Shown here: positions 1-43,659 of the stretch, piece after piece
Layout of the letters: every line of letters begins with the position of its first letter
Numbering within the stretch: the stretch's first letter is position 1
From: Eutreptiella sp. 'Long Island Sound 2002'
Lineage: Eukaryota > Euglenozoa > Euglenophyceae > Eutreptiales > Eutreptiaceae
NCBI GenBank assembly: GCA_964036045.1
Contig: OZ038384.1
Location: forward strand, 24,853,000-24,916,999
Direction: 5' to 3'
DNA: 64,000 bases
Notes under the pieces: model-generated
Seen by the model: the letters and a program-made list of their open reading frames with translations, nothing else
The model's database searches: none
What the model was told of the DNA's origin: nothing
Position numbers and translations under genes: made by a program

Positions 1-460
1 CCGATTTCGACATCGCGAAAAATTCAGATTAAAATTTCGAGTGCTTATTTAGAAAATTGCGGAAGCAACGAACCCTTTGCTGATGAAATCTGACCCTTCA
101 ACGGAGTATCCGCCAAAATATCTGGAAATAACAGTTAACCAATCGGTTAACGCAAGATCGCGAGCCAACTGACAGTCGCCGATACATTGACCATCAGAAC
201 GAAAGGCTGAAAAATTACGGAAACATTATGATAATAAAACCCTGTTGATTCCTGATATTCCGATATATAAATCTCCGCCGGCGGTGCCTCGGTACTGAAT
301 ATGGCCGCTCGTAGCCGGAATGGCCAAACCTATCACACTATCACATCGGGTTAGTTCAGGTGGATGGGAGAGTATGATATCAGCCAATGGCGGCTTGCCG
401 GCACAGAGATACACACCCCAAGTGACCCCAAGATGGCCACGGGGGTCCGAACCGGCTTCA
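1..460 (-). repeat. 3' LTR of copy A (partial)
   Basis: The LTR starts TGAAGCCGG on the minus strand at 460, directly after the polypurine tract, and repeats the sequence at 9590-10052. The rest lies outside the window, including the part that should hold the second spliced-leader copy. Confidence 0.9.
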
Positions 461-853: not shown

Positions 854-3487
854 TTACGGTGCTACAGCAGCAACCAAATGGACCAACACGTCCTTGACAT
901 CCAAAGAAATATTCTTTTTCTTTAGGTAGTCCATCCAGACCGTGGTGTACCTCGGCACAAAACTGCTCGGAGGCTCCCACGAGTCCCTTGATGCGGCGAA
1001 ACCCTTCCAACGGACTTTATAAAGCCTACCCCCAGGCGTCCCCGGGTCTGGCTTGTCAGCCAGGATCTTCTCGGCGGTGAAGTCGACGTCCTCACCCTCG
1101 TCGTCCGAGTCCACATCGCCAGCCGTGAACTCGAAGGTGACGGGACATCTGCTGGGGTCTGGTGCTCGGGGACGAAGCTGGGTATGGTCGCGGTCCAGGA
1201 TCTTGTTATCCCCCACACGAACCGCATATACATCCTGCCCGACCTTCCGCACGATTACCCCCGGCACATACCAAGATGCCTGCCGATGCCTGGACAGGAC
1301 ATCCTTGTGGTGCCGCTCCACCCACACGGTGTCTTGGAGAGCATACTTCTGGACTTTTCCCTGCTTGAAGTACTTGGCCCTCTTGTCATGCTCGTCCTGT
1401 AGTGCCTTGCACACCTTGGCCGCCGTGTCGTCCGCCTCAGCCATCATAGCATTCGCATCCCGGGCCACTTTGCCATGGTTCATCCACGGGAGAGTGCGTG
1501 ACACTCGATCTCGTAGGAACAGGATGCGATGGGGCGACAGTCCAGTGGGTCCCGGAAGGTCGTGATACGCTTGGAGCACTCTCCACAGCGAGTTATACCA
1601 GTTCCGGCCCGGTTCGTCAATGTGCAGCTGGCGGAACTTCTCGAACATCTGCCGCCCGGCCACCTCAGCACGGCCATTCGACCGGCTGTGGTACGCCACG
1701 GTCTTGGCATGCCGAGTCCCCATGTGCTTGCACATCGTCTTGAACCACGTCCCCACGAACTGACTGCGCCGATCGCTGCAGATGACAGCTGGGACATCAC
1801 AAATCGTCAGCCAATGCCTGATCATGGCATTAGCGACGGTCTTGGCCTGCAGCCCCACTCCATGCTTGTCCTTCTTGTCCTTCTTCTTGGAATTCTTGCC
1901 CGGGACTGCCACGATATACCCGCTGTGCCTGTCCACCGCCAGGATGACACAGTCGTAGGTCTCTCCGTCCACGGTGACCTCAGGCATGGCGAGCACATCC
2001 ATGGCCACGGACCGCATAGGGGCCTCCGGTATAGCCGTACACACTGGGTTGCCCGCTGTGGAGTGGTTAGGGCTCTTCGTGGCCCGACACACGGCACAGT
2101 CGCTGCAGTACCTATCCAGGATGGCGTAGTACCCCGGAGGGAACTTGAAACGCCATTCCAGGTCCTGCTGCATCTTGTCTCGGCCAGGGTGCATGAGCTG
2201 GGCGTTGTGCCAGTGGTCAATGAGCTCCTCCACTCGGTTCTCGGGCACCAGCAGCTTGTCCTTGAGGAACAGTTTGTCCCCATCATCGGTCAAGCCCTCA
2301 ATCCACTCGTCGTCCGACGGGGCGCTCACGGCATTCCAGTACTTGCTCCAGTGCTCGGATGCCGCGTAGTCATCCGACCAATCCTCTGTGAGCACCGACC
2401 TGACTAGCTCTACAGGGGCCACCATCCATTGCTCGAGGGTTTCCTCTCGAATAGCTTGGACGCGGGCACCCCGGAACTTGGCTAGGTCCGTACGGTTCGC
2501 CATCACCACAAAGCACTTGACCCCCTCTTGCTCCATGACCTTCTCCATCTCGATGATGCACTTGGCCTCCTCGGTCTCCTCGGCATCTCCATGGCTGGAT
2601 ATATCCATCCAAGCCTTGCCCGCGGGGTAGGCCCACCGACTGAGGCAATCTGCCACAGTGTTGTCCTTCCCCGGGACGTATACGACGCTGAGGTCGAACT
2701 TGGCGAACGTCTCGTGCCATCGGGCCCTCCTTGCCGCTGGTCCTGAGGGGATGTCGACATGCTCCTTGTGCCAGCTCTGTAGGGACTGGTGGTCCGTGCA
2801 AACCACCACCGGCTGCAGTCCGATGTGGCCAGACCACTTCCTGAGCGCACATACAATGGCGTATGTCTCCTTCTCCCTCGCGGTCCATGTTCGGCGTTGG
2901 CCCTCGGCCAGGATCCTGCTCCAAAACGCCACGGGAACATGAGTGCCGTCGTCCCGGACTTGCTCCAGGACTGCCCCCACGGCATAGTCCGAGGCGTCTG
3001 TCCGTAGCACGAATCCCTTGTCAGGGTCCACCAGGAACAGCCCCAACTGCCCCAGGAGTCGCTCCTTCAGGCTGTTGAACGCATCCTCAGCTTCAGGGGT
3101 CCAGGCAAGCTTCTTCTTGCTCCCCTTCCGACCATCAAACTTGCCCACCTGCAACATCTTGTGCAGCGGCCCCGACAGTTCTGCATACATCCGAACATAG
3201 CCCGAATAGTAATTGCAGAACCCCATGAAGGATCGGAGTTCGCTGATGGTCTGGGGCTTCTCCCAGTGGTGCAGGGATGCCAGTTTCCCAGGCATGGGAC
3301 GGCGTTGCCCGTGACCAACCACGTGACCCGCGAACTCCACTTCCTTCACGAAGAGTGAGGCTTTGGTGGGCTTGCACACCATGTTGTGCTTGTCCAACTC
3401 GCTGAGCACTCGGCGCAGATCCTTCTCATGCGCGTCGATGAGCTCGTCCTCAGTCATGTTCTCCGTGCCGGACCCGATGATGATGTC
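854..3487 (-). pseudogene. pol: pol of copy A, 3' part: RT end, RNase H, integrase, chromodomain
   Basis: This part resumes after a 1-nt deletion and follows copy B pol to the stop. In order it shows the end of RT (DIIIGSGTE and onward), RNase H (TDASDYAVGAVLEQ, then NTVADCLSRW), an HHCC integrase zinc site (HWHNAQLMHPG, CSDCAVC), the DDE integrase core and a C-terminal chromodomain (YKVRWKGF, then SWEP). In the core the second aspartate sits in CSDRRSQF, where B has CSDRGSQF. A chromodomain places the element in the chromovirus branch; in that branch it is thought to steer integration to marked chromatin. Because it is out of frame with the upstream RT, it cannot be made as part of the normal polyprotein. 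Confidence 0.9.
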
Positions 3488-5919
3488 TCCACGAAGGGGT
3501 CGGGACAGTCCCGGACAGGACCGAGTAGGTCCTCCATCATGCGCTGGAAAGCGGCGTTGCCATTCTTGGCGCCCATAGGCACCACTTTCCACTGCATGGG
3601 CCCCAGCGGCGTCGACATCGCTGTGCAGGGCCTGGAGTCCGGGTGTAGCGGCATCTGGTGATAACCGTGTTTCAGGTCCAACACCGTGAAAATCCGCTTT
3701 TTTTGTTGCTTTTGGAGGATGGAGTCGATCAGGGGAAGAGAGTACGAGTCGTGCTCGGTCTGCTCGTTCAAACCTCTGTAATCAACCACCAACCTCCACT
3801 CGCCCTTCTCCTTCTTGGGCACGATGAAGGCTGGGCTGGCCCACTCACTGTCGGAGGGTTTGATCCATCCCCGCTCAATGAACTCGGCCAACAGCTTCTT
3901 CATGACCTCGGCCCGATCCCCCTGAAGTTGGTACTCCCGATGACGATAGATCTTCGGGTTCGGCTTCAGCTTGATCTTCGCTGTACCAAACCTCCCACGA
4001 TCTGGAGGGTTCTTGTTGGCGACGCCACTGAATGGCCGCGGATAGGCATTGATCAGCCTCTCCTTCAGCTCGGCGACCTTCGGGTTCTCCTGGGCCTCTT
4101 CAGCCGCTTGCTTCGGTATCGATACAACCGACCGCACTGCGGTATAGGCCTCTTCTGGGTCCAAGTCCGACTTCTCCTCGTCCGATATGCCGTCTTCATC
4201 GTCGTGGGGCGCGCTTCCCACCGATAATCTTCGAAAATTTGCGGCCTCGGGCTGGTGCTCGTCGCTACCGGTTCCCACTGTTGGAAAACCCCACGTTGGT
4301 GGGTCCGACCCAACCGGACCATCGTATTGGTCCGCGATGTGATCCATGACCCTCGCCACGAACTCATCCTTCTCGTACTTGCCGGTGACCAACATCTTGT
4401 CATCCCACCAATGCGGAGATGTGACCATGGCCCGCCTCTTCTTGGCTGCCACACGGTCGTGCATCCCCATCCGCATGTAGTTGACGACGTCGTCGGTCTC
4501 GGCGTGGGACAGGACGTCAATGCCATCAATAGGCTGATCCGTCCCCTCCTTGGGCTCAAACATGACCTTCATGGGCACCGCCTCCAACCTACGGATGAAT
4601 GCTTCATCACCCGTGGGCTGGGCTTGCGCCCCATCCACCAGGAAAGCCTTGGTACCCCACGCTTGACCCGGGGAGGGCATTGATACACCCTTGGCGTCGA
4701 TGAACAACTCCTCCTCTGGCCCGAATGACATCTCGTTCAGGGTGATGGAGTCCAGCGTCGACTTGAGACCCTCCAGCGGACATGGGGTGGATCCTATGCC
4801 GGTTATGATCAGGATCCCCTTCGCCCTATCCGCGATGATCTTCTCCACCGTACGTCTGGTGTTATCCAGGGAGCCATGCCAATACATGGGCCCCCACTCC
4901 TTCAAACCCCAATGCCTATGCCAGGCTGAGTCTCCTCGATGCCAATGCCTCCTACACTTCCGCAGAAGTGGGGCATCCCGGGAGGCGAAGACGTCCGTCT
5001 CGGGCGCTTCGGCTCCTAGTGTCTGGATCATCCTGTCGTACACCTGTGGCGCCATTCCATATTCCGTGAGCTGAACTCCGCGGTCTCCTCTGGACTTGGC
5101 ACCCACAGCTTGCACCGCTCGGACGATCCAATCCTCTTCCTCAGCATTCCATTGGGATGATCCGCATGCATAGTCCGTGGACAACCATGTGAGGCACTCA
5201 TCATCCTCCCGGACCAGCGTTGCACGATGGGGAAGGGCTCCAATGGCGTTTGCCACCATGAAGTCATACCCCATGATCATATCCCAATCGGTAATGTCGG
5301 CCACATAGAAGTTCCCGGATAGAGTGCTTATCTTCGCCTGATCAGGGCGGTTCAAGCGCTCATGCTCCCAGAATTCCATACTGATGGTGGCCTCATGGGT
5401 GCCGCCACCCATAATCTCTCCGTTGGCGACCTTCAGGCGGACCGGTCTCTGGCTGGGCTGCAGGAGTTCCTCCTTGAACAACCCTCTCCGGACCAGGCTC
5501 ACTTGGGCACCCGTATCCACTAACACATCCACCACCTTCTCCTCTCGTCCGCACCGTACTCGCACTTTCAAGTGCAACTGCCGCTCGTCGCCATGAGGTG
5601 TATGGACGACTCTCACGGCATGCAACTCTAGCACGTCCGGGTGCATCAGGACTTCAAGGGTATGGTCACGGATGGTGTAGATCTTGGGTTGGTCCTGCCC
5701 GTCCACGGGGCTCTGCGTGGTCGCTCCTTCCTTCTTGCCATGTCCCGTACCCACATGTACTTCCCTTGGCAGGGCGCTCCAGGGGTTGGGAGTGGCGAAA
5801 CTCAGTGGTTTTGGCTCTTCCGGAGCCTTCTTCGGCACCCGATGTGCCTTCGCTTTGTCTGGGATTCCACTGATTTTCGGAGGAGAGACCTCCGAGGTCC
5901 CACTCCCGTGGGGGCTCCT
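3488..5919 (-). pseudogene. pol: pol of copy A, 5' part: protease, MTase-like region, RT
   Basis: Open in the same frame as gag directly after the gag UAG. No ATG lies at its head (the ATG seen in B is ATC here), so it would depend on readthrough. It holds an aspartic protease (VDTGAQVSLVR), then a Dam/DIRS-methyltransferase-like region at about 4750-5010, then the RT fingers and palm (WASPAFIVPKKEKGEW, VVDYRGLNEQT, HGYHQMPL). The frame breaks at 3487/3488: copy B reads TTC GTG GAT GAC (FVDD, the RT active site) and copy A lacks the T of GAT. The frameshift thus lies inside the catalytic box, and this copy cannot make active RT. Confidence 0.9.
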
Positions 5920-5922
5920 CTA
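5899..5922 (-). promoter_or_regulatory. gag UAG with downstream hairpin (readthrough signal, copy A)
   Basis: The gag stop codon TAG (5922-5920) is followed seven nt later by a stem CCCAC / GTGGG with a 4-nt loop. The sequence is identical in copy B. Pol continues in the same frame. This layout resembles gammaretroviral stop-codon readthrough; function is inferred. Confidence 0.55.
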
Positions 5923-8900
5923 GACTTGGCTTCCCGCAGCCCCTTCCGGCTGCGATCCGCCAGGACTTTGTCCACCACGTTGCTGGGCTTTGAGTTCCTC
6001 CAGCGTCCTCAACATGTCCTCAGCAACCTCCTCGATCGACCTCACTCGTCGGTCTTGGCCCGGTCCACCACCATAACCTCTTCCTCCGCCTTTTCCTTGG
6101 CCTTTGCCTTGGCCTTTTCCCCCGTCTCCGCCCTTCGCCTTCCAGTCGGAAATCCGCTGCTCCTTGGGCTTCTTCTCGGGGTGGGCTGCGAAGTAGGCCT
6201 TTTTGTCCGCCTCATACACCTTGCACTGACAGTGGTCATGTGCATGGTTGTTTCCCTTGCCATAACAGACCCAGCACCCGTCGTGCTGAGATCTGTACGC
6301 CCGGAACGAGAGCGGTGGGTTCCCGATCCTCCTTGGTCCTTCTCTGTTCTTCCTGGGTCCCACCTGGCTCCATCTGGACCGATCCTGCCCATGGTTCTTC
6401 ACGTTGTGCGCCACGAACGCGAAGAAATGGGCCTCCTCGTGATCCTCCCGGGACCAGTGGTCTTGGCCACTTCCACTACCATCCTCCGCAGAGTTGGCCG
6501 TGTCCTCCTGGATCTCCCGATGGTGACGGTCTTCTTGGTGGCCTCGTTGTCCATGACCATGTCGATCCTGCACGTGGGCCTCGTTCTTCGCATTGAGCTT
6601 CAACTCCACCGTGATGTACTTCACGATCTCGTCAAGGCTCATGCGGGCGAAGATGACTTGCATCCTCAGCGGCTCCCCGCGCCTCCACTCCACGTTGTTG
6701 AGGCGCAGCAACCTTTGCCCCATGGAGTCCCCGAATACCTCCACGTACACGGCGTTCTTCAGGCCCAACATCCCGTTGGGTTCGCCCAAGTTCCTCCTGA
6801 AGAACTCCATGATACCCGCATGGGTATCCTCCGCCGCCATAATCCTCACCGCCACCCGCTTTTTGGCGCGCTTCTTCTCCTCGTCCTCCACTCGCCTCTT
6901 CCAGTTCCCGGGGAGGACGTCCTTCAGGAGGTGGCGGATCTCGCTGGCCTCGTTCCAATCCTCCACCAGCTTGAGGCATCTGCGGTACTTCCGCAGATAC
7001 CGGTTCCACTCCCGGACCCGCAACTCACCGCGGTCCAGCGGCAGCGGAATGGACCACAGGTCCTCCAGCTTCTGGTTAGGAGCGTCCACCCGCTCCTCAT
7101 CCTCCAACCACTGGAGGCAGGCCTGCTCCGTACGGATCAATCCTTCCCGGATCTGATCCCGCAGCTCCTCCTTCAGGTCCTGCGCCAGCCGGTGTGGGAA
7201 TGCCCGGCATACCCACTTGTCCCGCGGCGCTCCCCGCATCTCGCCGACGACCTCCTCGGCGAAGTCCTCCCAATCCAGGATGAAGTCATCCAGGTTGGAG
7301 GGGTTGCCATCGTAGTAGGGGATTTTGATTCCCCTGAGGTCGTCAATCCTGATGGCGTCTCCGACGTCTCCAGCCACCACTCCACCGAGACGGATACCAC
7401 CTGTGGCCGGGGGGTGTGAGTACACTCCCCGTACATCCCTCTCCTCCATGGAGTGCGGTCCAGTTGGGCCTGAACCCATGGGGTTTGGAATGCGGGAAGG
7501 ATTTGCTCCATCGGCCGTCCATATCCCCGTATTGGGGTCCTTGGCCCACAGGTTTCCGCCTGGATGACCTCGACCATGTCCGTCGGCGCTTCCCATGGTT
7601 CGCCCCTGCATGGTCTGGTTCTGGATCACGTCTTCCGCATATACCACCATATTCGTCGTGATCGGTACATCCTGGGCGGCATGGGACATCTGCACTGTCA
7701 GGATCCTCGGATCCGTGGCTACGTGCCCTTCCCGCATGGACCCAGCCAGTGCCGTGTGTTCCCCGAGCATTGTTGATTCGCTGAACATGGGAACAAACGG
7801 CAGCGCACCCGGGTCAACACGCGGAGGCGTGTATGGTACCTCTGCAGGGCCGCCCATGGGTTTCTCCATGGCGCTCCTGAGGGTCTTAACCCGCTCCACC
7901 AGCTCTACCGCGGCCGGCTTTGCCGGGAGCTCCGGACCCGAGGTGAGGGGCTGTCGCTCCTCTAGCCTTTTCAGGCGTCCCGACATGTCTTCCACTAAGT
8001 GGAGGAGGCTGTCCACCACTTGTTGCTGCTTCTGCAGGGCCAGCTCCAGATTCTCCCGGTACCGGGCCTGATCTGCTCGCAGCTCCTCCATGTGGTTCTC
8101 CGCGGCCGACTGGTCGTCCAGGATCCCCGCGACGTCCTCCTCTAGAGCGTCCTTGGCGTTGTCCAGGCGGTCAAGGTGATGCACGATGGCGTCCATCCCC
8201 ATCTTCGGGTACTTGCCCATGAGGAAGGACACGTGCTCGCAGTGGCACGCAGCGTGCTTTCCGCCAGATGCAGCGCATCCCGCGGTTCCCGGCACCTCAG
8301 ACTCATCACCCATAGGCGTATCGCCTATGGCGTCCGTCTCTGGTCCCGTGTGCCGGGGCACAGGTGCCGTCCGGGCCCTGGCTGGCCTCTCCAAGCCCTC
8401 GGCGTCGTGCTGCAGGGCGGGCTCGGGGGCCGTATGCGCCCTGGCGATCGGCGCGGGCGTCTCCGGCTCCGAAGGTGGCTCGTAGGCCGTCCGATATCCC
8501 TCGGAGTGCCCCTCGGATTCCCACAGCCTGACCGGTCTGGGGTCCGTGTCCATAGCCCCGGCGTCCCTTGCCGCGGACTTGGGTGACCCGCGCTTCCGGT
8601 AGCGCCGGGCCTGTCCTCCACTGCTGCCTGAATGGCAGGCCTCATCAGAGTCCTCGGCGGCGGAGCGGAGGTTGCATGCCTTTCGGCAGCGACGCTCACA
8701 CATGAAGATCAGGTCCTCCATGTCACGTCCTCCTCTTCCCGAGTGTCGTTCTTCTCTTCGGGCTTCAACTTCCGGAGTTCGCCATGCTCTTGAACGTCTC
8801 GGTCCTTCTATGCCTCCAATCTCCGGCGTGGTCTCCACCGAATCCACAATACGCACCCGGGGCGTACTTGGGCAGGGCTCATAAGGGCCCAAGTCTCCGG

Positions 8901-9027
8901 GTCGGCGGTTGGTAGGGGCAGCAGGTAAGCCTCTGCTACCATAAAGAAGGTCCCTACCAGGACCGGCCCCCGCTGTGCCCCTTCCGCCTGTAACCCCTGC
9001 CGATTTGCTCCTGATCAACGATTGCAT
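5920..9027 (-). CDS. gag: Gag of copy A
   Basis: An intact 1,035-residue Gag starting at an ATG inside the 5' LTR (9027) and read through the primer-binding site. Features in order: a basic, disordered N-terminus with a Cys-containing segment (CERRCRKAC); a coiled coil (LDRLDNAKDALEEDVAG through QQQVVDSLLHLVEDMSGRLKRLEE); a capsid-like helical domain (YYDGNPSNLDDFILDWEDF onward); a Cys/His cluster (CWVCYGKGNNHAHDHC) in place of a classical CCHC knuckle; a Gly/Lys-rich tail (GKGQGKGQGKGGG). It should form the particle and bind element RNA. The next downstream ATG would lose the LTR-coded N-terminus, so the true start is uncertain. Copy B has the same frame with one nonsense codon. Confidence 0.85.
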   Translation of the reverse strand: MQSLIRSKSAGVTGGRGTAGAGPGRDLLYGSRGLPAAPTNRRPGDLGPYEPCPSTPRVRIVDSVETTPEIGGIEGPRRSRAWRTPEVEARREERHSGRGGRDMEDLIFMCERRCRKACNLRSAAEDSDEACHSGSSGGQARRYRKRGSPKSAARDAGAMDTDPRPVRLWESEGHSEGYRTAYEPPSEPETPAPIARAHTAPEPALQHDAEGLERPARARTAPVPRHTGPETDAIGDTPMGDESEVPGTAGCAASGGKHAACHCEHVSFLMGKYPKMGMDAIVHHLDRLDNAKDALEEDVAGILDDQSAAENHMEELRADQARYRENLELALQKQQQVVDSLLHLVEDMSGRLKRLEERQPLTSGPELPAKPAAVELVERVKTLRSAMEKPMGGPAEVPYTPPRVDPGALPFVPMFSESTMLGEHTALAGSMREGHVATDPRILTVQMSHAAQDVPITTNMVVYAEDVIQNQTMQGRTMGSADGHGRGHPGGNLWAKDPNTGIWTADGANPSRIPNPMGSGPTGPHSMEERDVRGVYSHPPATGGIRLGGVVAGDVGDAIRIDDLRGIKIPYYDGNPSNLDDFILDWEDFAEEVVGEMRGAPRDKWVCRAFPHRLAQDLKEELRDQIREGLIRTEQACLQWLEDEERVDAPNQKLEDLWSIPLPLDRGELRVREWNRYLRKYRRCLKLVEDWNEASEIRHLLKDVLPGNWKRRVEDEEKKRAKKRVAVRIMAAEDTHAGIMEFFRRNLGEPNGMLGLKNAVYVEVFGDSMGQRLLRLNNVEWRRGEPLRMQVIFARMSLDEIVKYITVELKLNAKNEAHVQDRHGHGQRGHQEDRHHREIQEDTANSAEDGSGSGQDHWSREDHEEAHFFAFVAHNVKNHGQDRSRWSQVGPRKNREGPRRIGNPPLSFRAYRSQHDGCWVCYGKGNNHAHDHCQCKVYEADKKAYFAAHPEKKPKEQRISDWKAKGGDGGKGQGKGQGKGGGRGYGGGPGQDRRVRSIEEVAEDMLRTLEELKAQQRGGQSPGGSQPEGAAGSQV
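8930..8941 (-). other. Primer-binding site, copy A
   Basis: TGGTAGCAGAGG abuts the 5' LTR on the minus strand. It is complementary to the 3' end expected for initiator tRNA-Met (CCTCTGCTACCA). The site is in frame with gag and codes for GSRG. Confidence 0.85.
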
Positions 9028-10052
9028 TGCTCAAAATCCAAGGTTCCAAATCCAAAAATATAGAAAATAAAATCCTCCTTCAACCCTGAATGGCAACCAG
9101 ATCCCACAAATACAGCAATAACCCAATTCACAATCCAAATCAGGCTGCGGGCTTTCGTTCAGCACATCGATGGTCTCACGATGGCGGGCATGTACAAGAA
9201 TTGCACCAAGGAAGAAAGCCCGAAAAAAAATAGACACTCAGAAAGTCACAATAAAATGTTCGGTTGCACGGTCCAAGAGTTATATATCACTTTATACCCT
9301 CTTGACCATTATCCCTTGCTATATCGGGCATGTGTACACACCAAAGGCGTTTGATGCTTCCTAAATTAAGTTGAGACCAAGGCGTATGCAACCCAACCTT
9401 CCTTATTCTCTTTCCTCACACTCGCGCGTAGATATGGTCCTTCAAAGTGGTCCCACGATTCACTGTTGTTTCCCTTATATCTCCAAGTCAAATGGGTGGC
9501 AAGTATAAGGGAAACCTGATTCGGGCACAGGGAAAGGAGTATGACCACTCAAAGAAGTCCAAATCAAGTGCGGCGATGTCGAAGTCGAAAATCCAATTTC
9601 GACATCGCGAAAAATTCAGAATAAAATTTCGAGTGCTTATTTAGAAAATTGCGGAAGCAACGAACCCTTTGCTGATGAAATCTGACCCTTCAACGGAGTA
9701 TCCGCCAAAATATCTGGAAATAACAGTTAACCAATCGGTTAACGCAAAATCTCGAGCCAACTGACAGTCGCCGATACATTGACCATCAGAACGAAAGGCT
9801 GAAAAATTACGGAAACATTATGATAATAAAACCCTGTTGATTCCTGATATTACGATATATAAGTCTCCGCTGGCGGTGCCTCGGTTCTGAATATGGCCGC
9901 TCAGAGCCGGAATGGCCAAACCTATCACAATGACACATCAGGTTAGGTCAGGTGGATGGGAGAGTATGATATCAGCCAATGGCGGCTTGCCGGCACATAG
10001 ATACACACCCCAAGTGACCCCAAGATGGCCACGGGGGTCCGAACCGGCTTCA
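8942..10052 (-). repeat. 5' LTR of copy A, SL-containing short form (1,111 bp)
   Basis: Runs from TGAAGCCGG at 10052 to the base before the primer-binding site. It aligns with the copy B LTR on both sides of one discontinuity: the 3' side begins GGCTTTCTTCC, exactly where B has its AG splice acceptor, and the other side joins at GACTTTC. Between them lies the spliced leader instead of about 1.26 kb of B sequence. Confidence 0.9.
9221..9246 (-). other. Spliced-leader sequence embedded in LTR
   Basis: A perfect 26-nt match, as I know it, to the Euglena SL, ending in eight T and CG, joined directly to GGCTTTCTTCC. In copy B that same sequence follows ...CCAATTTCAG. The junction is therefore exactly what trans-splicing at the B acceptor would give. 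Confidence 0.9.
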
Positions 10053-10483
10053 ATCCACTCTGTCTGCATGATTGTACCCCTAGGCTTATGCACAGCACCA
10101 AAGCCCTGCAGTCCTCTTTCATTGTTCTCTCCAAAAGGATTCGGGCCTGCTTTCCCCCCTCCGCCCTTCGTTATTATCACCGAGCAGTCCTTCACTACCC
10201 CAACAAATCAAAGAATCCCGGACAAAAAGTCTCAGTGTGAAGAGATGATGCGGATGGCCCAAGGGACTCTACGAAATGACAAAAATGCGATCTCTTCACA
10301 CTTGCCCAGTATTAGAGGTGGTTTTTCGGGCAAAGTCGTGACGGATGGCAATCCAAGCACCCTGCTCTGTCCAAATCTCTCTCAAATGACAAATGCTCAC
10401 ATCATGCAACAATGTAGCACACAATGTAATGTTGATTTCTTTGATTTAGTGCACATGAATGATCTTTCAGCCATTGCAATCAC
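10053..10483. other. Unique spacer between head-to-head copies A and B
   Basis: 431 bp of non-element DNA. One plus-strand frame (starting at 10053) is open throughout. If copy B and one target duplication are removed, it stays open into 23712-23930. The product is not recognised; it could be an interrupted host exon or chance. Confidence 0.5.
10480..10483. repeat. Target-site duplication of copy B, left
   Basis: TCAC (ATCAC if 5 bp) precedes the LTR and recurs at 23708-23711 after the 3' LTR. This confirms that the 2.37-kb direct repeats are true LTRs. Confidence 0.8.
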
Positions 10484-11289
10484 TGAAGCCGGTTCGGACC
10501 CCCGTGGCCATCTTGGGGTCACTTGGGGTGTGTATCTATGTGCCGGCAAGCCGCCATTGGCTGATATCATACTCTCCCGTCCACCTGAACTAACCCGATG
10601 TGATAGTGTGATAGGTTTGGCCATTCCGGCTCTGAGCGGCCATATTCAGTACCGAGGCGCCGCCAGCGGAGATTTATATATCGGAATATCAGGAATCAAC
10701 AGGGTTTTATTATCGTAATGTTTCCGTAATTTTTCAGCCTTTCGTTCTGATGGTCAATGTATCGGCGACCGTCAGTTGGCTCGCGATTTTGCGTTAACCG
10801 ATTGGTTAACTGTTATTTCCAGATATTTTGGCGGATACTCCGTTAAAGGGTCAGATTTCATCAGCAAAGGGTTCGTTGCTTCCGCAATTTTCTAAATAAG
10901 CACTCGAAATTTTAATCTGAATTTTTCGCGATGTTGAAATTGGATTTTCGACTTCGACATCGCCGCACTTGATTTGGTCGTCTTCGAGTGGTCATACTCT
11001 TTTCCCTATGCCCAAATCAGGTTTCCCTTATACTTGCCACCCATTTGACTTGGAGATATAAGGGAAACAAAAGTGAATCGTGGGACCACTTTGAAGGGCC
11101 ATATCTACGAGCGAGTGTGAGGAAAGAGAATAAGGAAAGTTGCGTTGCAAGCGCCTTGGTCTCAAGTTAATTTAGGAAGCATCAAACGCCTTTGGTGTGT
11201 ACACATGCCTGGTGTAGCAAGGAATAATGGTCAAGAGGGCATAAATTGATATATAACTCTTGGACCGTGCAACCGAATATTTTAATGCG

Positions 11290-11301
11290 ACTTTCGAGTG
11301 T
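11290..11301 (+). promoter_or_regulatory. SL-like string in LTR (possible strand-transfer site)
   Basis: ACTTTCGAGTGT equals the first 13 nt of the SL minus one T. It marks the upstream breakpoint at which copy A joins its SL. The second copy is at 22148-22159. The role is inferred. Confidence 0.55.
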
Positions 11302-12510
11302 ACCGCATGAGTGTTGGGGTTGCATAGATACTTTCCTTGGGTTCCTACGTATTTTTAACGTGAAGTTATGACCATGGAGGGACATGGCATATGGTGGTGG
11401 GAGCCACATTTTGAGGGTATCTGTTATATGCATGGTATATGTCTTGATATGCTCACACCCATGTTATATATCTTCGTGTGGCCGAAGAGATGGGGAGCCA
11501 TACGTGACAAGGGCTTTGCCCATGTCCCAATTGTGGAATTCAAAGCGCTAGACCAAGTCTACCGCGTATGTATTGCTCATGGTATGTTTGACAAAGAGAT
11601 CCATGGGTGCACTCCCATTTTCATGGGGCATGTAGATATTAGTGGCGAAGGTATCTCCATGCGCCCGATTGGGGATCCAAGTGGGGGAATTGTTCGCAAA
11701 TGGTTCCAATCATTTGTGTATTGAATCATGAGCGGATATCATGGGTGAGCATAGAGATATACTATCATGACAACTTTGTATTTGGTCATATTTTCATGTT
11801 TTTGACCTCAATTTTTGCTCATTTTTGCGTTTTGTGTACTTACCTGGTCAGCAAACAGCAAGAAGCCTATGGAGAGTCGAACCATGGTATGTTGTTCATA
11901 TGTTGGCATATGCTTTGGAGTTGAACACCACCATATGCCGGATCGCGTACTCCATTTGGCTTGGCGCACAAGAGATTACCAGAATTGGTCTCGAAAGCAT
12001 GGGCTGACTTGGGCAGTGCCTGGCGCCCATATCCGAAGGGGTTTCGAGGGTAAAGTGGGGATGTACATGGGCATTGGCCTTTGGTCTCTATCCTCCATGA
12101 ATACTAGACTTCTATTCCATGCATGCTTTGAGCCTTCGTATAAGTAGTAACTTCAATTTTGAGCATATATTTGATATATGGCCAATATGGTGTGAATTGG
12201 CAGTTTTTTGACATGTTATGAGTTCAAACTCATAGGTCATTTCTCTAAGCACATTCGACTCCAAGTCCAACCAAGGTTATGTCAGGGTAGGGCATGGTCC
12301 TGAGTGCCACTCTAGGCCATGACACGCCACCTCCCCTATTGGGCTAGGATTTAGAGGCTTGGGAGTGAACACATTTTTGGGGTTTATGTAATGACTTTTG
12401 ACGTGTGGCATTTAGCCATCTTATTTGATTGGGTTCAAGGCATCATGTTGGTGAGTCAAGGGAAGGTCTTGAGTCCAGGGAATGAGGGGTCTATGGCTGA
12501 GATTGTATAA

Positions 12511-12562
12511 GTTTCCATCTTTCCCCAACTTTGCTTTATTTGTGTTCATATGCCAATTTCAG
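12511..12562 (+). promoter_or_regulatory. SL trans-splice acceptor in LTR
   Basis: A pyrimidine-rich tract (GTTTCCATCTTTCCCC and onward) ending CCAATTTCAG, followed by GGCTTTCTTCC. Copy A shows the SL joined to this exact position. Splicing would leave a leader of about 200 nt before the gag ATG. Confidence 0.75.
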
Positions 12563-12763
12563 GGCTTTCTTCCTTGGTGCAATTCTTGTACATGCCCGCC
12601 ACCGTGAGACGACCGGTGTGCTGAACGGAAGCCCGCAGCCTGATTTGGATTGTGAATTGGGTTATTGCTATACTTGTGGGATCTGGTTGCTGTTCAGGGT
12701 TGAAGGAGGATTACATTTTCTATATTTTTGGATTTGGACCCTGGATTTTGAGGACTTTGAGAA

Positions 12764-15700
12764 ATGAAATCGTTGATCCGGAGCAAGTCAGCAGGGGTGA
12801 CAGGCGGAGGGGGCACAGCGGGGGCCGGTCCTGGTAGGGACCTTCTTTATGGTAGCAGAGGCTTACCTGCTGCCCCTACCAACCGCCGACCCGGGGACTT
12901 GGGCCCTTATGAGCCCTGCCCAAGTACGCCCCGGGTGCGTATTGTGGACTCGGTGGAGACCACGCCGGAGATTGGAGCCATAGAGGGACCGAGACGTTCA
13001 AGAGCATGGCGAACTCCGGAAGTTGAAGCCCGAAGAGAAGAACGACATTCGGGAAGAGGAGGACGTGACATGGAGGACCTGGTCTTCATGTGTGAGCGTC
13101 GCTGCCGAAAGGCATGCAACCTCCGCTCCGCCGCGGAGGACTCTGATGAGGCCTGCCATTCCGGCAGCAGTGGAGGACGGGCCCGGCGCTACCGGAAGCG
13201 CGGGTCACCCAAGTCCGCGGCACGGGACGCCGGGGCTATGGACACGGACCCCAGCCCGGTCAGGCTGTGGGAATCCGAGGGGCACTCTGAGGGCTATCGG
13301 ACGGCCTACGAGCCACCTTCGGAGCCGGAGATGTCCGCGCCGATCGCCAGGGCGCATATGGCCCCCGAGCCCGCCCTGAAGCACGACGCCGAGGGCTTGG
13401 AGAGGCCGGCCAGGGCCCGGACGGCACCTGTGCCCCGGCACACGGGACCAGAGACGGACGCCATAGGCGATACGCCCATGGGCGATGAGTCTGAGGTGCC
13501 GGGAACCGCGGGATGTGCTGAATCCGGCGGAAAGCACGCTGCGTGCCACTGCGAGCACGTGTCCTTCCTCATGGGCAAGTACCCGAAGATGGGGATGGAC
13601 GCCCTCGTGCATCGTCTTGACCGCCTGGACAACGCCAAGGACGGTCTAGAGGAGGACGTCGCGGGGATCCTGGATGACCAGTTGGCCGCGGAGAAAGACA
13701 TGGAGGAGCTGCGAGCGGAACGGGACCGGTACCGGGAGAATCTGGAGCTGGCCCTGGAGAAGCAGCAGCGAGTGGTGGACAGCCTCCTCCACCTGGTGGA
13801 GAACATGTCGGGACGCCTGAAAAGGCTAGAGGAGCTACAGCCCCTCGCCTCGGGTCCGGAGCTCCCGGCAAAGCCCGCCGCGGTAGAGCTGGTGGAGCGG
13901 GTTAAGACCCTCAGGAGCGCCATGGAGAAACCCATGGGCGGCCCTGCAGAGGCACCATACGCGCCTCCGCGTGTTGACCCGGGTGCGCTGCCGTTTGTTC
14001 CCATGTTCAGCGAATCCACAATGCTCAGGGAACACACGGCACCGGCTGGGTCCATGCGGGAAGGGCACGTAACCACGGATCCGAGGAGCCTGACGGTGCA
14101 GATGTCCCATGCCGCCCAGGATGTACCGATCACGACGAATATGGTAGTTTATGCGGAAGAGAAGATCGAGATCCAGAACCAGACCATGCAGGGGCGAACC
14201 ATGGGAAGCGCCGACGGACATGGTCGAGGCCATCCAAGCGGAAACCTGTGGGCGAAGGACCCCAATACGGGGATATGGACGGCCGATGGAGCAAATCCTT
14301 CCCGCATTCCAAACCCCATGGGTTCAGGCCCAACTGGACCGCACTCCACGGAGGAGAGGGATGTACGGGGAGTGTACTCACACCCCCCGGCCACAGGTGG
14401 TATCCGTCTCGGTGGAGTGGTGGCTGGAGACGTCGGAGACGCCATCAGGATTGACGACCTCAGGGGAATCAAAATCCCCTATTACGACGGGAACCCGTCC
14501 AACCTGGATGACTTCATCCTGGACTGGGAGGACTTCGCCGAGGAGGTCGTCGGCGAGATGCGGGGAGCGCCGCGGGATAAGTGGGTATGCCGGACATTCC
14601 CACACCGCCTGGCGCAGGACCTGAAGGAGGAGCTGCGGGATCAGATCCGGGAAGGACTGATCAGGACGGAGCAGGCCTGCCTCCAGTGGTTGGAGGACGA
14701 GGAGCGGGTGGACGCTCCGAATCAGAAGCTGGAGGACCTGTGGTCCATTCCACTGCCGCTGGATTGCGGTGAGTGGCGAGTCCGGGAGTGGAACCGGTAT
14801 CTGCGGAAGTACCGCTGATTCGTCAAGCTGGTGGAAGACTGGAACGAGGCCAGTGAGATCCGCCACTTGCTGAAGGACGTCCTCCCCGGCAACTGGAAGA
14901 GAAGAGTGGAGGACGAGGAGAAGAAGCGCGCCAAGAAGCGGGTGGCGGTGAGGATCATGGCGGCGGAGGATACCCATGCGGGTATCATGGAGTTCTTCAG
15001 GAGGAACCTGGGCGAGCCCAACCGGATGTTGGGCCTGAAGAACGCCGTGTACGTGGAGGTATTTGGGGACTCCATGGGGCAAAGGTTGCTGCGCCTCAAC
15101 AACGTGGAGTGGAGGCGCGGGGAGCCGCTGAGGATGCAAGTCATCTTCGCCCGCATGAGCCTTGACGAGATCGTGAAGTACATCACGGTGGAGTTAAAGC
15201 TCAATGCGAAGAACGAGGCCCACGTGCAGGATCGACATGGTCATGGACAACGAGGCCACCGAGAAGACCGCCATCATCGGGAGATCCAGGAGGACACGGC
15301 CAACTCCGCGGAGGATGGTAGTGGAAGTGGCCAAGACCACTGGACCGGGTCCCGGGAGGATCACGAGGAGGCCCATTTCTTCGCGTTTGTTGCGCACAAC
15401 GTGAAGAACCACGGGCAGGATCGGTCCAGATGGAGCCAGCTGGGACCCAAGAAGAGCAGAGAGCCAAGGAGGATCGGGAGCCCACCGCTCTCGTTCCGAG
15501 AGTACAGGTCTCAGCACGACGGGTGCTGGGTCTGTTATGGCAAGGGAAACAACCATGCACACGACCACCGTCAGTGCAAGGTGTATGAGGCGGACAAGAA
15601 GGCCTACTTCGCCGCCCACCCCGAGAAGAAGCCCAAGGAGCAGCGGATTTCCGATTGGAAGGCGAAGGGCGGAGACGGGGGAAAAGGCCAAGGTAAAGGC

Positions 15701-15880
15701 CAAGGAAAAGGCGGAGGAAGAGGCTATGATGGTGGACCTGGCCAAGACCGACGAGTGAGGTCGATCGAGGAGGTTGCTGAGGACATGTTGAGGACGTTGG
15801 AGGAACTCAAAGCCCAGCAACGTGGTGGACAAAGTCCTGGCGGATCGCAGCCGGAAGGGGCTGCGGGAAGCCAAGTCTAG
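12764..15880 (+). pseudogene. gag: Gag of copy B (one nonsense codon)
   Basis: Starts at an ATG 86 nt upstream of the LTR end and reads through the primer-binding site. It has the same domains as copy A Gag: basic Cys-containing N-terminus, coiled coil (about 13600-13850), capsid-like domain (from about 14460), Cys/His cluster (CWVCYGKGNNHAHDH, near 15525) and a Gly/Lys-rich tail. A UGA at 14816-14818 interrupts the capsid domain: A reads KYRRCLKLV where B reads KYR-stop-FVKLV. The frame is otherwise intact to the UAG at 15878. A truncated Gag without the nucleic-acid-binding tail is the expected product. Confidence 0.88.
12850..12861 (+). other. Primer-binding site, copy B
   Basis: TGGTAGCAGAGG, complementary to the initiator tRNA-Met 3' end, directly after the 5' LTR and inside the gag reading frame. 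Confidence 0.87.
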
Positions 15881-15901
15881 AGGAGCCCCCACGGGAGTGG
15901 G
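15878..15901 (+). promoter_or_regulatory. gag UAG with downstream hairpin (copy B)
   Basis: TAG, seven nt, then stem CCCAC (15888-15892) and GTGGG (15897-15901). Identical to copy A although the copies differ elsewhere. Pol is in frame and open directly after the stop. Confidence 0.55.
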
Positions 15902-18900
15902 ACCTTGGAGGTCTCTCCTCCGAAAATGAGTGGAATCCCTGAGAAAGCGAAGGCACATCGGGTGCCGAAGAAGGCTCCAGAAGAGCCAAAACCACTGAGT
16001 TTCGCCACTCCCAACCCCTGGAGCGCCCTGCCAAGGGAAGTACATGTGGGTACGGGACATGGCAAGAAGGAAGGAGCGACCACGGAGAGCCCCGTGGACG
16101 GGCAGGACCAACCCAAGATCCACACCATCCGTGACCATACCCTTGAAGTCCTGATGCACCCGGACGTGCTAGAGTTGCATGCCGTGAGAGTCGTCCATAC
16201 ACCTCATGGCGACGAGCGGCAGTTGCACTTGAAAGTGCGAGTACGGTGCGGACGAGAGGAGAAGGTGGTGGATGTGTTAGTGGATACGGGTGCCCAGGTG
16301 AGCCTGGTCCGGAGAGGGTTCTTCAAGGAGGAACTCCTGCAGCCCAGCCAGAGACCGGTCCGCCTGAAGGTCGCCAACGGAGAGATTATGGGTGGTGGCA
16401 CCCATGAGGCCACTATCAGTACCGAATTCTGGGAGCATGAGCGCTTGAACCGCCCTGATCAGGCGAAGAGAAGCACTCTATCCGGGAACTTCTATGTGGC
16501 CGACATTACCGATTGGGATATGATCATGGGGTATGACTTCATGGTGGCAAACGCCATTGGAGCCCTTCCCCATCGCGCAACGCTGGTTCGGGAGGATGAT
16601 GAATGCCTCACATGGCTGTCCACGGACTATGCATGCGGATCATCCCAATGGAATGCTGAGGAAGAGGATCGGATCGTCCAAGCGGTGCAAGCTGTGGGTG
16701 CCAAGTCCAGAGAAGACCGTGGAGTTCAGCTCACGGAGTATGGAATGGCGCCGCAGGTGTATACCAGGATGATCCAGACGCTGGGAGCCGAAGCGCCCGA
16801 GACGGACGTCTCTGCTTCCCGGGATGCCCCACTTCTGCGGAAGAGTAGGAGGCACTGGCATCGAGGAGATTCAGCCTGGCACCGGCATTGGGGTTAGAAG
16901 GAGTGGGGACCCATGTATTGGCATGGCTCCCTGGACAATACCAGACGTACGGTGGAGAAGATCATCGCGGATAGGGCGAAGGGGATCCTGGTCATAACCG
17001 GCATAGGATCCACCCCATGTCCGCTGGAGGGTCTCAAGTCGACGCTGGATTCCATCACCCTGAACGAGATGTCATTCGGGCCAGAGGAGGAGTTGTTCAT
17101 CGACGCCAAGGGTGTATCAATGCCCTCCCCGGGTCAAGCGTGGGGTACCAAGGCTTTCCTGGTGGATGGGGCGCAAGCCCAGCCCACGGGTGATGAAGCA
17201 TTCATCCGTAGGGTGGAGGCGGTGCCCATGAAGGTCATGTTTGAGCCCAAGGAGGGGACGGATCAGCCTATTGATGGCATTGACGTCCTGTCCCACGCCG
17301 AGATCGACGACGTCGTCAACTACATGCGGATGGGGATGCACGACCGTGTGGCAGCCAAGAAGAGGCGGGCCATGGTCACATCTCCGCATTGGTGGGACGA
17401 CAAGATGTTGGTCACCGGCAAGTACGAGAAGGATGAGTTCGTAGCGAGGGTCATGGATCACATCGCGGACCAATACGATGGTCCGGTTGGGTCGGACCCA
17501 CCAACGTGGGGTTTTCCAAGAGTGGGAACCGGTAGCGACGAGCACCAGCCCGAAGCCGCAAATTTTCGAAGATTATCGGTGGGAATCGCGACCCACGACG
17601 ATGAAGACGGCATATCGGACGAGGAGAAGTCGGACTTGGACCCAGAAGAGGCCTATACCGCAGTGCGGTCGGTTGTATCGATACCGAAGCAAGCGGCTGA
17701 AGAGGCCCAGGAGAACCCAAAGGTCGCCGAGCTGAAGGAGAGGCTGATCCATGCCTATCCGCGGCTATTCAGTGGCGTCGCCAACAAGAGCCCTCCAGAT
17801 CGTGGGAGGTTTGGTACAGCGAAGATCAAGCTGAAGCCGAACCCGAGGATCTATCGTCATCGGGAGTACCAACTTCAGGGCGATCGGGCCGAGGCCATGA
17901 AGAAGCTGTTGGCCGAGTTCATTGAGCGGGGATGGATCGAACCCTCCGACAGTGAATGGGCCAGCCCAGCCTTCATCGTGCCCAAGAAGGAGAAGGGCGA
18001 TTGGAGGTTGGTGGTTGATTACAGAGGTTTGAACGAGCAGACCGAGCACGACTCGTACTCGCTTCCCCTGATCGACTCCATCCTCCAAAAGCAACAGAAA
18101 AAGCGGATTTTCACGGTGTTAGACCTGAAACACGGTTATCACCAGATGCCGCTACACCCGGACTCCAGGCCCTGCACAGCGATGTCGACGCCGCTGGGGC
18201 CCATGCAGTGGAAAGTGGTGCCTATGGGCGCCAAGAATGGCAACGCCGCTTTCCAGCGCATGATGGAGGACCTACTCGGTCCTGTCCGGGACTGTGCCGA
18301 CCCCTTCGTGGATGACATCATCATCGGGTCCGGCACGGAGAACATGACTGAGGACGAGCTCATCGACGCGCATGAGAAGGATCTGCGCCGAGTGCTCAGC
18401 GAGTTGGACAAGCAGAACATGGTGTGCAAGCCCACCAAAGCCTCACTCTTCGTGAAGGAAGTGGAGTTCGCGGGTCACGTGGTTGGTCACGGGCAACGCC
18501 GTCCCATGCCTGGGAAACTGGCGTCCCTGCACCACTGGGAGAAGCCCCAGACCATCAGCGAACTCCGGTCCTTCATGGGGTTCTGCAACTACTATTCGGG
18601 CTATGTCCGGATGTATGCAGAACTGTCGGGGCCGCTGCACAAGATGCTGCAAGTCGGCAAGTTCGATGGCCGGAAGGGGAGCAAGAAGAAGCTTGCCTGG
18701 ACCCCTGAGGCTGAGGATGCGTTCAACAGCCTGAAGGAGCGACTCCTGGGGCAGTTGGGGCTATTCCTGGTGGACCCGGACAAGGGATTCGTGCTACGGA
18801 CAGACGCCTCGGACTATGCCGTGGGGGCAGTCCTGGAGCAAGTCCGGGACGACGGGACTCATGTTCCCGTGGCGTTTTGGAGCAGGATCCTGGCCGAGGG

Positions 18901-20947
18901 CCAACGCCGAACATGGACCGCGAGGGAGAAGGAGACATACGCCATTGTATGTGCGCTCAGGAAGTGGTCTGGCCACATCGGACTGCAGCCGGTGGTGGTT
19001 TGCACGGACCACCAGTCCCTACAGAGCTGGTACAGGGAGCATGTCGACACCCCCTCAGGACCAGCGGCTAGGAGGGCCCGATGGCACGAGACGTTCGCCA
19101 CGTTCGACCTCAGCGTCGTGTACGTCCCGGGGAAGGACAACACTGTGGCAGACTGCCTCAGTCGCTGGGCCTACCCCGCGGGCAAGGCGTGGATGGACAT
19201 ATCCAGCCATGGCGACGCCGAGGAGACCGAGGAGGCCAAGCGCATCATTGAGATGGAGAAGGCCATGGAGCAAGAGGGAGTCAAGTGTTTTGTGGTTATG
19301 GCAAACCGTACAGACCTGGCCAAGTTCCGGGGTGCCCGCGTCCAAGCTATTCGAGAGGAAACCGTCGAGCAATGGATGGTGGCCCCTGTAGAGCTAGTCA
19401 GGTCGGTGCTCACAGAGGACTGGTCGGATGACTACGCGGCATCCGAGCACTGGAGCAAGTACTGGAATGCCGTGAGCGCCCCGTCGGACGACGAATGGCC
19501 TGAGGGCTTGACCGAGGATGGGGACAAGTTGTTCCTCAAGGACAAGCTGCTGGTGCCCGAGAACCGAGTGGAGGAGCTCATTGACCACTGGCACAACGCC
19601 CAGCTCATGCACCCTGGCCGAGACAAGATGCAGCAGGACCTGGAATGGCGTTTCAAGTTCCCTCCGGGGTACTACGCCATCCTGGATAGGTACTGCAGCG
19701 ACTGTGCCGTGTGTCGGGCCACGAAGAGCCCCAACCACTCCACAGCGGGCAACCCGGTGTGTACGGCTATACCGGAGGCCCCTATGCGGTCCGTGGCCAT
19801 GGATGTATTCGCCATGCCTGAGGTCACCGTGGAAGGAGAGACCTACGACTGTGTCATCCTGGCGGTGGATAGGCACAGTGGGTATATCGTGGCGGTCCCT
19901 GGCAAGAAGTCCAAGAAGAAGGACAAGAAGGACAAGCATGGAGTGGGGCTGCAGGCCAAGACCGTCGCTAATGCCATGATCAGGCATTGGCTGACGATTT
20001 TCGATGTCCCAGCTGTCATCTGCAGCGATCGGGGCAGTCAATTCGTGGGGACGTGGTTCAAGACGATGTGCAAGCACATGGGAATTCGGCACGCCAAGAC
20101 CGTGGCATACCACAGCCGGTCGAATGGCCGGGCTGAGGTGGCCGGGCGGCAGATGTTCGAGAAGTTCCGCCAGCTGCACATCGACGAACCGGGCCGGAAT
20201 TGGTACAATTCGCTGTGGAGGGTACTCCAAGCGTATCACGACCTTCCGGGGCCCACTGGACTGTTGCCCCATCGCATCCTGTTCCTACGGGATCGAGTGT
20301 CACGCACTCTCCCGTGGTTGAACCATGGCAAAGTGGCCCGGGATGCGAACGCCATGATGGCTGAGGCGGACGACACGGCGGCCAAAGTGTGCAAGGCACT
20401 TCAGGACGAGCATGACAAGAGGGCAGAGTACTTCAAGCAAGGAAAAGTCCAGAAGTATGCTCTTCAAGACACCGTGTGGGTGGAGCGGCACCACAAGGAT
20501 GTCCTGTCCAGGCATCGGCAGGCATCTTGGTATGTGCCGGGGGTAATCGTGCGGAAGGTCGGGCAGGATGTGTATGCGGTTCGTGTGGGGGATAACAAGA
20601 TCCTGGACTGCGACCATACCCAGCTTCGTCCCCGAGCACCAGACCCCAGCGGACGTCCCGTCACCTTCGAATTCACGGCCGGCGATGTGGACTCGGACGA
20701 CGAGGGTGAGGACGACGACTTCACCGCTGAGAAGATCCTGGCGGACAAGCCGGACCCGGGGACGCCTGGGGGTAGGCTTTATAAAGTCCGTTGGAAAGGA
20801 TTCGCCGCATCCAGGGATTCGTGGGAACCTCCGAGCAGTTTCCTGCCGAGGTATACCACGGTATGGATGGACTACCTAAAGAAAAAGAATATTTCTTTGG
20901 ATGTCAAGGACGTGTTGGTCCATTTGGTTGCTGCTGTAGCACTGTAA
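15881..20947 (+). pseudogene. pol: pol of copy B: protease-MTase-like-RT-RNase H-integrase-chromodomain
   Basis: 1,688 codons in frame with gag. Protease DTGA at 16283. Methyltransferase-like region about 16795-17010, with DVSASRD and GPMYWHG where related elements keep DAFAN and INPPF. RT from about 17900, active site FVDD at 18305-18316. RNase H TDASDYAVG near 18800. Integrase zinc site near 19590-19710, then a DDE core with 35 residues between the SDRG aspartate (about 20028) and the RAE glutamate. Chromodomain about 20720-20890 (YKVRWKGF, SWEP). A UAG at 16895-16897 replaces the Leu codon of copy A (HWG-L-KEWG) inside the MTase-like region. Apart from that stop all catalytic motifs are intact, unlike copy A. 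Confidence 0.9.
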
Positions 20948-23707: not shown

Positions 23708-23711
23708 TCAC
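23708..23711. repeat. Target-site duplication of copy B, right
   Basis: TCAC, matching 10480-10483. The preceding A could make it 5 bp. Confidence 0.8.
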
Positions 23712-35171: not shown

Positions 35172-35187
35172 CAACTATCAAGAGCCT
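35172..35187. repeat. LINE target-site duplication, left
   Basis: CAACTATCAAGAGCCT, identical to 43644-43659. Confidence 0.93.
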
Positions 35188-35574
35188 TTTTTGCACTGAA
35201 CGGCGCCTTTTGTGGCTGGCCAGGCCGGGGAGAAAGGCTCTTGCGCGCCAAGCTTTTTTGGGGAGGGGCGGGAGCCCGAAATCAAGTTCAATCGCGGGCT
35301 GAGTGCCGCTGCACGTTGCTGTCCTCGTCTGCTTCATCTCAAAGAGACTTGGCAGCCCCGTTATAGACAACCGCAGGCCGGGGTCTCCGCTTGATACCCG
35401 AAGGCGGTGTGGTTGCGGATTGGGGGTTAGAGCATGACGGCTTGAGCACGGGGGGTGGCTTGGGGGAGGGATTCATTTGCAGAAGTGACTGGTGAGTGCC
35501 AGTGTGGTAGTACTGATTGATCGCGCCGCTAGGGCTGTCGAGGGTCGGCGTGAGAAAGTGTAAGTGTGGCTTTT

Positions 35575-43643: not shown

Positions 43644-43659
43644 CAACTATCAAGAGCCT
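43644..43659. repeat. LINE target-site duplication, right
   Basis: CAACTATCAAGAGCCT, identical to 35172-35187. Confidence 0.93.

Follow-up and report, generated by a model that had tools for sequence, protein, structure and literature searches.

In dinoflagellates, spliced leader (SL) recycling and SL retrogenes have been described following the model of Slamovits and Keeling, in which a trans-spliced RNA is reverse-transcribed and gives rise to a genomic copy with SL letters at its 5′ end; the products treated in the passages cited here are cellular genes, and the SL is located at their outer 5′ end (PMC3229502; PMC12014239). For flatworms, 597 discarded SL-like loci were tied to mobile elements, mainly LTR elements and LINEs, which are also the element types concerned here; the respective passage, however, deals with partial leaders and gives no junctions, mechanism, landing site, or comparison of copies with and without the outron (PMC12582326). 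In Caenorhabditis elegans, the Ty3/gypsy element Cer1 offers an example of an SL acceptor in an LTR element, its spliced 2.4-kb mRNA being found with and without SL1, whereas its 8-kb gag-pol RNA is not trans-spliced and an SL in the LTR is not described in the cited part of that study (PMC3315495). Comparable in another respect is HIV-1, in which spliced transcripts of an LTR element are packaged along with the genomic RNA and are reverse-transcribed; since splicing is downstream there, the 5′ R is kept, whereas trans-splicing as considered here removes R (excerpt of PMC1868081).

The locus analyzed in this study lies in a stretch of 64,000 nt from Eutreptiella sp. 'Long Island Sound 2002' (contig OZ038384.1; hereafter the window). 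In contrast to the dinoflagellate retrogenes, its SL is not found at an outer 5′ end but inside the LTRs of a retrotransposon, at U3 position 806 and between U3 and U5 in both regenerated LTRs, which requires LTR strand transfer. A description of an SL inside a regenerated LTR did not turn up in searches of open-licence literature, which is a weak negative.

Two related elements, with and without the outron

The window contains two related Ty3/gypsy elements, copy A and copy B, arranged head to head (Table 1). Both display reverse transcriptase, RNase H and integrase in gypsy order together with a C-terminal chromodomain, as expected of a chromovirus, an assignment made by domain search. In the pol frame of copy B, Pfam places RVT_1 at 361-528, RNase H at 601-736, integrase at 886-1071 (with the core rve scoring below the curated cutoff) and Chromo at 1275-1312; copy A contains the same domains split across two frames, and the gag frames of both copies matched 0 Pfam families. 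The LTRs read TGAAGCC...CTTCTTTA, with the initiator-tRNA-Met-like primer binding site TGGTAGCAGAGG after the 5′ LTR and the polypurine tract AGAAGGGGGG before the 3′ LTR. Target duplications of 4 bp are present in each case, namely GGAT for copy A (10053-10056 reads ATCC on the plus strand and matches the 3′ flank read in locus L031), TCAC for copy B (10480-10483 and 23708-23711), and CATT for a nearby single LTR, called C. With 26 LTR-to-LTR differences in 1111 nt, as compared to 19 in 2366 nt for copy B, copy A looks like the older insertion; LTR C differs from the copy B LTR at 202 of 2345 positions. Judging from these sequences, the copies belong to a large Ty3/gypsy family with long LTRs, in which U3 is followed by an outron of 1.27 kb with a splice acceptor at its end. 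In both copies, an in-frame stop divides gag from pol at a matching position (A, 5920-5922, minus strand; B, 15878-15880, plus strand), resembling that of elements which use stop readthrough. A tandem array with a 21-nt period (24383-24844) adjoins the 3′ end of copy B.

Table 1. Positions of the two elements, their LTR parts and an SL-bearing LINE within the window.
Feature	Position	Strand	Basis or detail
Copy A 3′ LTR, portion within the window (U3 only)	1..460	minus	remainder including the SL at C7:24852349-24852999
Copy A gag and pol frames, interrupted	857..9030	minus	ORFs; Pfam RVT_1, RNase H, integrase, chromodomain in the pol frames
Copy A primer binding site TGGTAGCAGAGG, adjoining the 5′ LTR	8930..8941	minus	sequence
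Copy A 5′ LTR, SL-type, 1111 nt	8942..10052	minus	U3 9247-10052; SL 9221-9246; exon part 8942-9220
Copy B 5′ LTR, outron-type, 2366 nt	10484..12849	plus	LTR alignment
Copy B SL-like R start ACTTTCGAGTGT (SL nt 1-13 minus one nt); proposed type-1 landing site	11290..11301	plus	
Copy B outron, from the inferred R start to the acceptor CAG (12560-12562)	11290..12562	plus	absent from A by alignment
Copy B 5′ LTR exon part GGCTTTCTTCC..., with gag start codon	12563..12849	plus	
Proposed type-2 landing site GGCTTTCT	within 12563..12849	plus	exon part of the copy B 5′ LTR
Copy B gag and pol frames, interrupted	12761..20944	plus	ORFs; Pfam
Copy B 3′ LTR, outron-type	21342..23707	plus	SL-like R start 22148-22159; acceptor CAG 23418-23420
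LINE whose outer 5′ end is a perfect SL, the second of the window (43613-43638)	35188-43638	minus	SL search

The first-pass annotation had reported the 26-nt SL ACTTTCTGAGTGTCTATTTTTTTTCG in the LTR of copy A, and this could be confirmed as an exact match (26/26). A chance match is ruled out by shuffled windows, which contained a mean of 0.00 matches at up to three mismatches, and a mismatch to the real leader is ruled out as well, as the 26-mer is identical to the Euglena gracilis SL as printed in the cited part of PMC6242988. On the strand of copy A, ...TTTTATTGTG stands directly before the SL and GGCTTTCTTCCTTGG directly after it. The same downstream sequence starts at 12563 in copy B, where it follows CCAATTTCAG with its terminal CAG, as had been stated; the reported absence of the stretch upstream of this acceptor from copy A also held, whereas its start, given as 11297, was placed by alignment at 11290 (1273 nt up to 12562). 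Outron and acceptor are the same in the 3′ LTR of copy B as in its 5′ LTR. In copy A, the full SL is joined precisely at the exon start used by the copy B acceptor and the outron is missing, as in a retrocopy of a trans-spliced RNA; at the other loci described below, the 3′ join is fixed by the search pattern. Cis-splicing of the 1.27-kb stretch is ruled out, as the SL letters TGTCTATTTTTTTTCG of copy A are absent from copy B at that place. The 3′ LTR of copy A, which extends beyond the window, was read in locus L031 and contains the SL (26/26) with an identical join (C7:24852628-24852653), ruling out an SL confined to one LTR. Since both LTRs carry the SL and the flanks repeat GGAT, the SL was in place before integration.

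The SL of copy A is not followed by the intron part of an SL RNA (GTATATACTCG in several genes), and the SL RNA genes L001-L008 differ from the copy A LTR on both sides of the SL. An origin of the copy B promoter from an SL RNA gene was rejected by eye, the bases upstream of the SL RNA genes being unlike the U3 end of copy B.

A second perfect SL in the window, which the first-pass annotation had missed, is located at the 5′ end of a LINE that has a short A tail and is flanked by 16-nt target duplications (35172-35187 and 43644-43659); 5 additional nt are found next to the SL. The start sequence of this LINE follows the SL in 16 of 51 SL occurrences (50 loci, the first listed on C1 and thus not random), so that insertions of this kind seem commonly to begin with an SL. 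The first frame of the LINE (40706-43561, minus strand) contains, just above the Pfam cutoff, a 2OG-Fe(II) oxygenase domain at 819-926, which is presumably AlkB-like. Further LTR-type pol frames are located at 46262-49843 (minus strand, with a chromodomain) and 59667-63998 (plus strand), the two SLs of the window being elsewhere, and adjacent tRNA-Thr and tRNA-His genes are found at 28806-29044 (plus strand). Tandem leaders, reminiscent of the relict leaders of dinoflagellates, were observed in loci L010 and L046. A C directly precedes the SL in each of the 8 SL RNA genes and in 38 of the 42 other occurrences (L001-L051 without L031, with L013 omitted from the second count). The Eutreptiella SL is printed as 28 nt, ACACUUUCUGAG..., in the cited part of PMC3621762, and the real leader of E. 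gracilis may extend 1-2 nt further upstream than the 26-mer in print.

Leader joins across the genome

Genome-wide, the SL followed by GGCTTTCTTCCTTGG (41-mer) was found at 43 places with up to three mismatches, the reversed pattern yielding 0. At the same threshold, the acceptor form (29-mer) matched 7459 places and the outron-type R start (39-mer) 8057 places (controls 0 each); the ratio of SL-type to acceptor-type of about 0.5% is rough, as the pattern lengths differ, and counts in large families may be lower bounds. The 41-mer requires the exon directly after the SL and leaves the 5′ side free, so that other 3′ joins fall outside the count of 43. The SL alone, with up to two mismatches, matched 6409 places in the whole genome, including SL RNA genes and retrocopies (reversed control 0), and the SL pattern had 0 matches each in a set of viral contigs and a set of genome contigs, which possibly do not include the genome of the window.

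Regarding the proposed check of how many family copies are SL-type and whether one or both LTRs are concerned, 22 of the 43 places form 11 tight pairs at LTR-to-LTR distance, the remaining 21 standing outside such pairs. Eleven SL insertions are flanked on either side by matching 4-bp duplications, namely copy A, eight further insertions of what is called type 1 below (L064/L052, L055/L054, L056/L070, L057/L074, L059/L060, L065/L080, L053/L066, and L076/L078), and two of type 2. The spacing of L053/L066 and L076/L078 is wider (22.8 and 60.3 kb), presumably because other insertions lie between their LTRs. The flanks of the single LTR L063 match as well, L067 and L068 have a 3′ flank in common, and the 3′ flank of L079 is that of L070, of whose place L079 may be a second copy. 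Given this identity and the 21 places outside tight pairs, the 43 places are not all independent. Thirty of them were read as loci (L052-L081); of the other 13, the 3′ LTR of copy A was read in L031 and the 5′ LTR of the copy on C16 in its upstream part only (L103).

Two main classes of joins were observed. In type 1, which accounts for 27 of the 30 loci read, the SL directly follows the end of U3, i.e., it is located at the U3/R border and replaces the 1.27-kb outron. This join is found at LTR position 806 in 24 of 25 full-LTR loci and at 794 in the remaining one. The U3 ends themselves vary and are A-like (TTTTATTGTG), B-like (TTTTAATGCG), TTTTTTTGCG or, in L053, C-like (CTTGATATTATG); A-like and B-like ends are also found in outron-type copies, and the outron-type LTR C shows the C-like end. 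In type 2 (3 of 30 loci) the outron is kept and the sequence reads CCAATTTCAGG/GCTTTCTGAGTGTC...TTCG/GGCTTTC, that is, GG of the exon, SL nt 2-26, and the exon. The type-2 junction occurs at exactly 4 genomic places (control 0), which correspond to 2 copies, on C6 and C16, with the target duplications GCGC and CTGA. As their sequences (L072/L075) differ at 108 of 1510 positions between a point inside the outron and the end of the LTR, these copies may represent two captures. A further join was found by the SL-only search in a related LTR, L013 (C1:5630893), where the SL is joined about 447 nt into U3, after GATTTTTTCAG; no SL-like landing site matching this join was seen by eye in copy B, and it fits neither of the two main classes.

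The position of the type-1 join coincides exactly with an SL-like sequence of the parent form, ACTTTC-GAGTGT, which corresponds to nt 1-13 of the SL ACTTTCTGAGTGT with one deletion. The 12-mer ACTTTCGAGTGT is part of the 39-nt stretch counted above; among 20 sampled outron-type copies, 18 have it unchanged and the other two carry one substitution each. Comparison of copy B with LTR C revealed 24 differences in the 60 nt upstream of the R start and 8 in the 60 nt beginning with the preceding G (Fisher p = 0.0017), and such a step in divergence is expected of a U3/R border. No difference was observed in GACTTTCGAGTGTA, the 12-mer together with its flanking G and A thus being intact (14/14) in the diverged LTR C. 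Within the window, SL nt 1-13 are matched within one edit only by the two SLs and the two R starts of copy B. As 1.4e-6 such matches are expected per position, or about 0.003 per 2366-nt LTR, the SL likeness of the R start is probably not due to chance.

Proposed strand transfer on a trans-spliced template and its alternatives

The suggestion of the first-pass annotation that a trans-spliced element RNA was reverse-transcribed and that the SL entered the LTR in this way is supported by an SL which starts at its nt 1, by the exact join to the exon, by the agreement of both LTRs, and by the recurrence at other loci. In our view, the sequences are best explained by strong-stop cDNA which was synthesized on trans-spliced RNA and jumped to the 3′ LTR via similarity to the 5′ end of the SL, and we regard this as very probable. 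From the genomic sequence we infer the R start, the poly(A) site and the trans-splicing of the family RNA. According to this reconstruction, the RNA of the family would sometimes be trans-spliced, as the joins suggest, its outron being swapped for the SL, and such an SL-tagged RNA would serve as template for a minus-strand strong-stop DNA ending in the complement of the SL. The first strand transfer to the 3′ LTR would then take place by pairing via the 5′ end of the SL. Landing at the R start ACTTTCGAGTGT would yield the order U3-SL-exon, as found in copy A and most loci read, and landing at the exon start GGCTTTCT would yield U3-outron-GG-SL(2-26)-exon (parent GGCTTTCTTCC compared to ACTTTCTGAG). 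In the latter case, extension from the paired CTTTCT would leave the parental GG in place and remove the first A of the SL, and the type-2 junctions indeed retain GG and are missing SL nt 1, as a CTTTCT-guided transfer predicts. The completed DNA would integrate normally, with the SL in both LTRs.

The type-2 landing site implies an RNA 3′ end beyond the acceptor and hence an R which would span the outron and part of the exon. With such an R, a transfer taking place before the cDNA reaches the SL would restore the outron and leave no trace, and trans-spliced RNA may be used as template more often than the captures show. The joins further suggest that the first strand transfer can proceed on imperfect similarity over about 12 nt.

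A DNA-level event, either gene conversion or insertion, could also have brought the SL into the LTRs, with an SL RNA gene or SL-tagged retrocopy as its source, and possible donors would be plentiful, as the 6409 SL matches of all kinds illustrate. Nevertheless, we consider such an event extremely unlikely, since in copy A the leader stops precisely where the exon begins and it is exactly the outron that is missing, since both LTRs agree and are accompanied by target duplications, and since the free 5′ side in the 30 loci consists of U3 or outron without any SL RNA gene flank; an SL followed by intron or retrocopy letters is a form that the 41-mer could not detect. The reverse order of events, with an ancestral SL form and outron-type LTRs arising by a later insertion of 1.27 kb into the SL, would account for the SL-like 12-mer at which outron-type LTRs start, as it could be the remnant of an SL. 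Such an insertion would, however, have had to place a CAG acceptor right at the border of the exon while removing the remainder of the SL, and the outron-type copies are diverse (as seen between C and B) as well as far commoner, which makes this scenario very improbable.

It is also conceivable that SL-type copies sustain themselves, with a promoter starting at the DNA-encoded SL, which would serve as R, and with spread independent of trans-splicing. The first-pass annotation had seen copy A as such a derived form, in which the SL acts as terminal repeat. The presence of the SL in both LTRs of integrated copies and SL-type LTR pairs differing by as little as 13 of 1117 nt would fit a self-sustaining lineage, as would some groupings, namely L062 with L063 in a tree of the last 178 nt of U3 (99/93) and L057/L074 and L059/L060 (1.0 each) in an 806-nt U3 tree with only three outron-type rows; some SL-type elements may thus have moved. 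On the other hand, SL-type places are rare (43 vs. 7459 of acceptor type) and do not cluster in the 178-nt tree. This tree comprised 16 SL-type rows from the 30 loci (with the second LTRs of pairs excluded, along with L067, L077, L079 and all three type-2 loci) and 24 outron-type rows, of which 20 were hand-picked from the first 100 listed of 7459 and the others were B5, C, L102 and L103, the last two being the U3 parts of the two type-2 copies, labelled outron-type. It required 13 label changes compared to a mean of 12.8 after shuffling (338 of 500 shuffles were as low), well-supported branches forcing at least 6, and a single clade of SL-type rows was rejected (p-AU 3e-68, and 5e-5 without five diverged rows, four SL-type and C). 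Intermolecular strand transfer could, however, scatter U3 types, so that the label-change test alone does not count captures; high intra-family recombination has been reported in the cited part of PMC5668417.

As the jump can swap U3 from one RNA to another, the exon was compared as well, and several exon haplotypes were found among the SL-type copies. The haplotype of copy A (up to two mismatches) occurs at 646 places, and among the 100 listed, only the two LTRs of copy A itself are SL-type; 22 of 23 close pairs among these 100 show outron-type spacing, judged by distance alone. L067/L068 have the first part of this haplotype in common with copy A, and not its end. Given these outron-type relatives among the listed places, copy A is best seen as the product of one capture, the source being an outron-type subfamily that is common. 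Furthermore, with the acceptor gone from copy A, its transcripts would not be trans-spliced there, and the match between RNA 5′ end and 3′ LTR that had been proposed for it is already approximated by the parent form via ACTTTCGAGTGT at the R start. The view of copy A as a derived form using the SL as R was therefore not upheld, and we consider a self-sustaining SL lineage unlikely. SL-type copies rather look like mostly single captures from the outron-type family than like a lineage of their own. The capture of the SL happened more than once; provided that L013 is a capture, the three different joins (at the R start, at the exon start, and in L013) imply at least three such events, and their number is likely to be higher.

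A leader look-alike at the start of R

The 12-nt look-alike of the SL at the R start could be an adaptation to a trans-splicing host, as an RNA with its R replaced by the SL would still find the 3′ LTR. We put this forward only tentatively, and it appears rather doubtful to us; the 12-mer may alternatively be what is left of an old SL capture, or else a start-site motif that is shared. According to the cited part of PMC11170887, the start sites of outrons in E. gracilis are unknown, and the R start points to a likely transcription start and thereby to the length of an outron (1273 nt in copy B). The LTR of copy A was apparently rebuilt from a trans-spliced template, with the point of strand transfer still readable in the DNA. 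If the adaptation were real, the family would be able to reverse-transcribe trans-spliced as well as unspliced RNA, and the SL captures in its LTRs would be the visible by-product. A question that arises is whether leader look-alikes evolve in the retroelements of hosts with trans-splicing.
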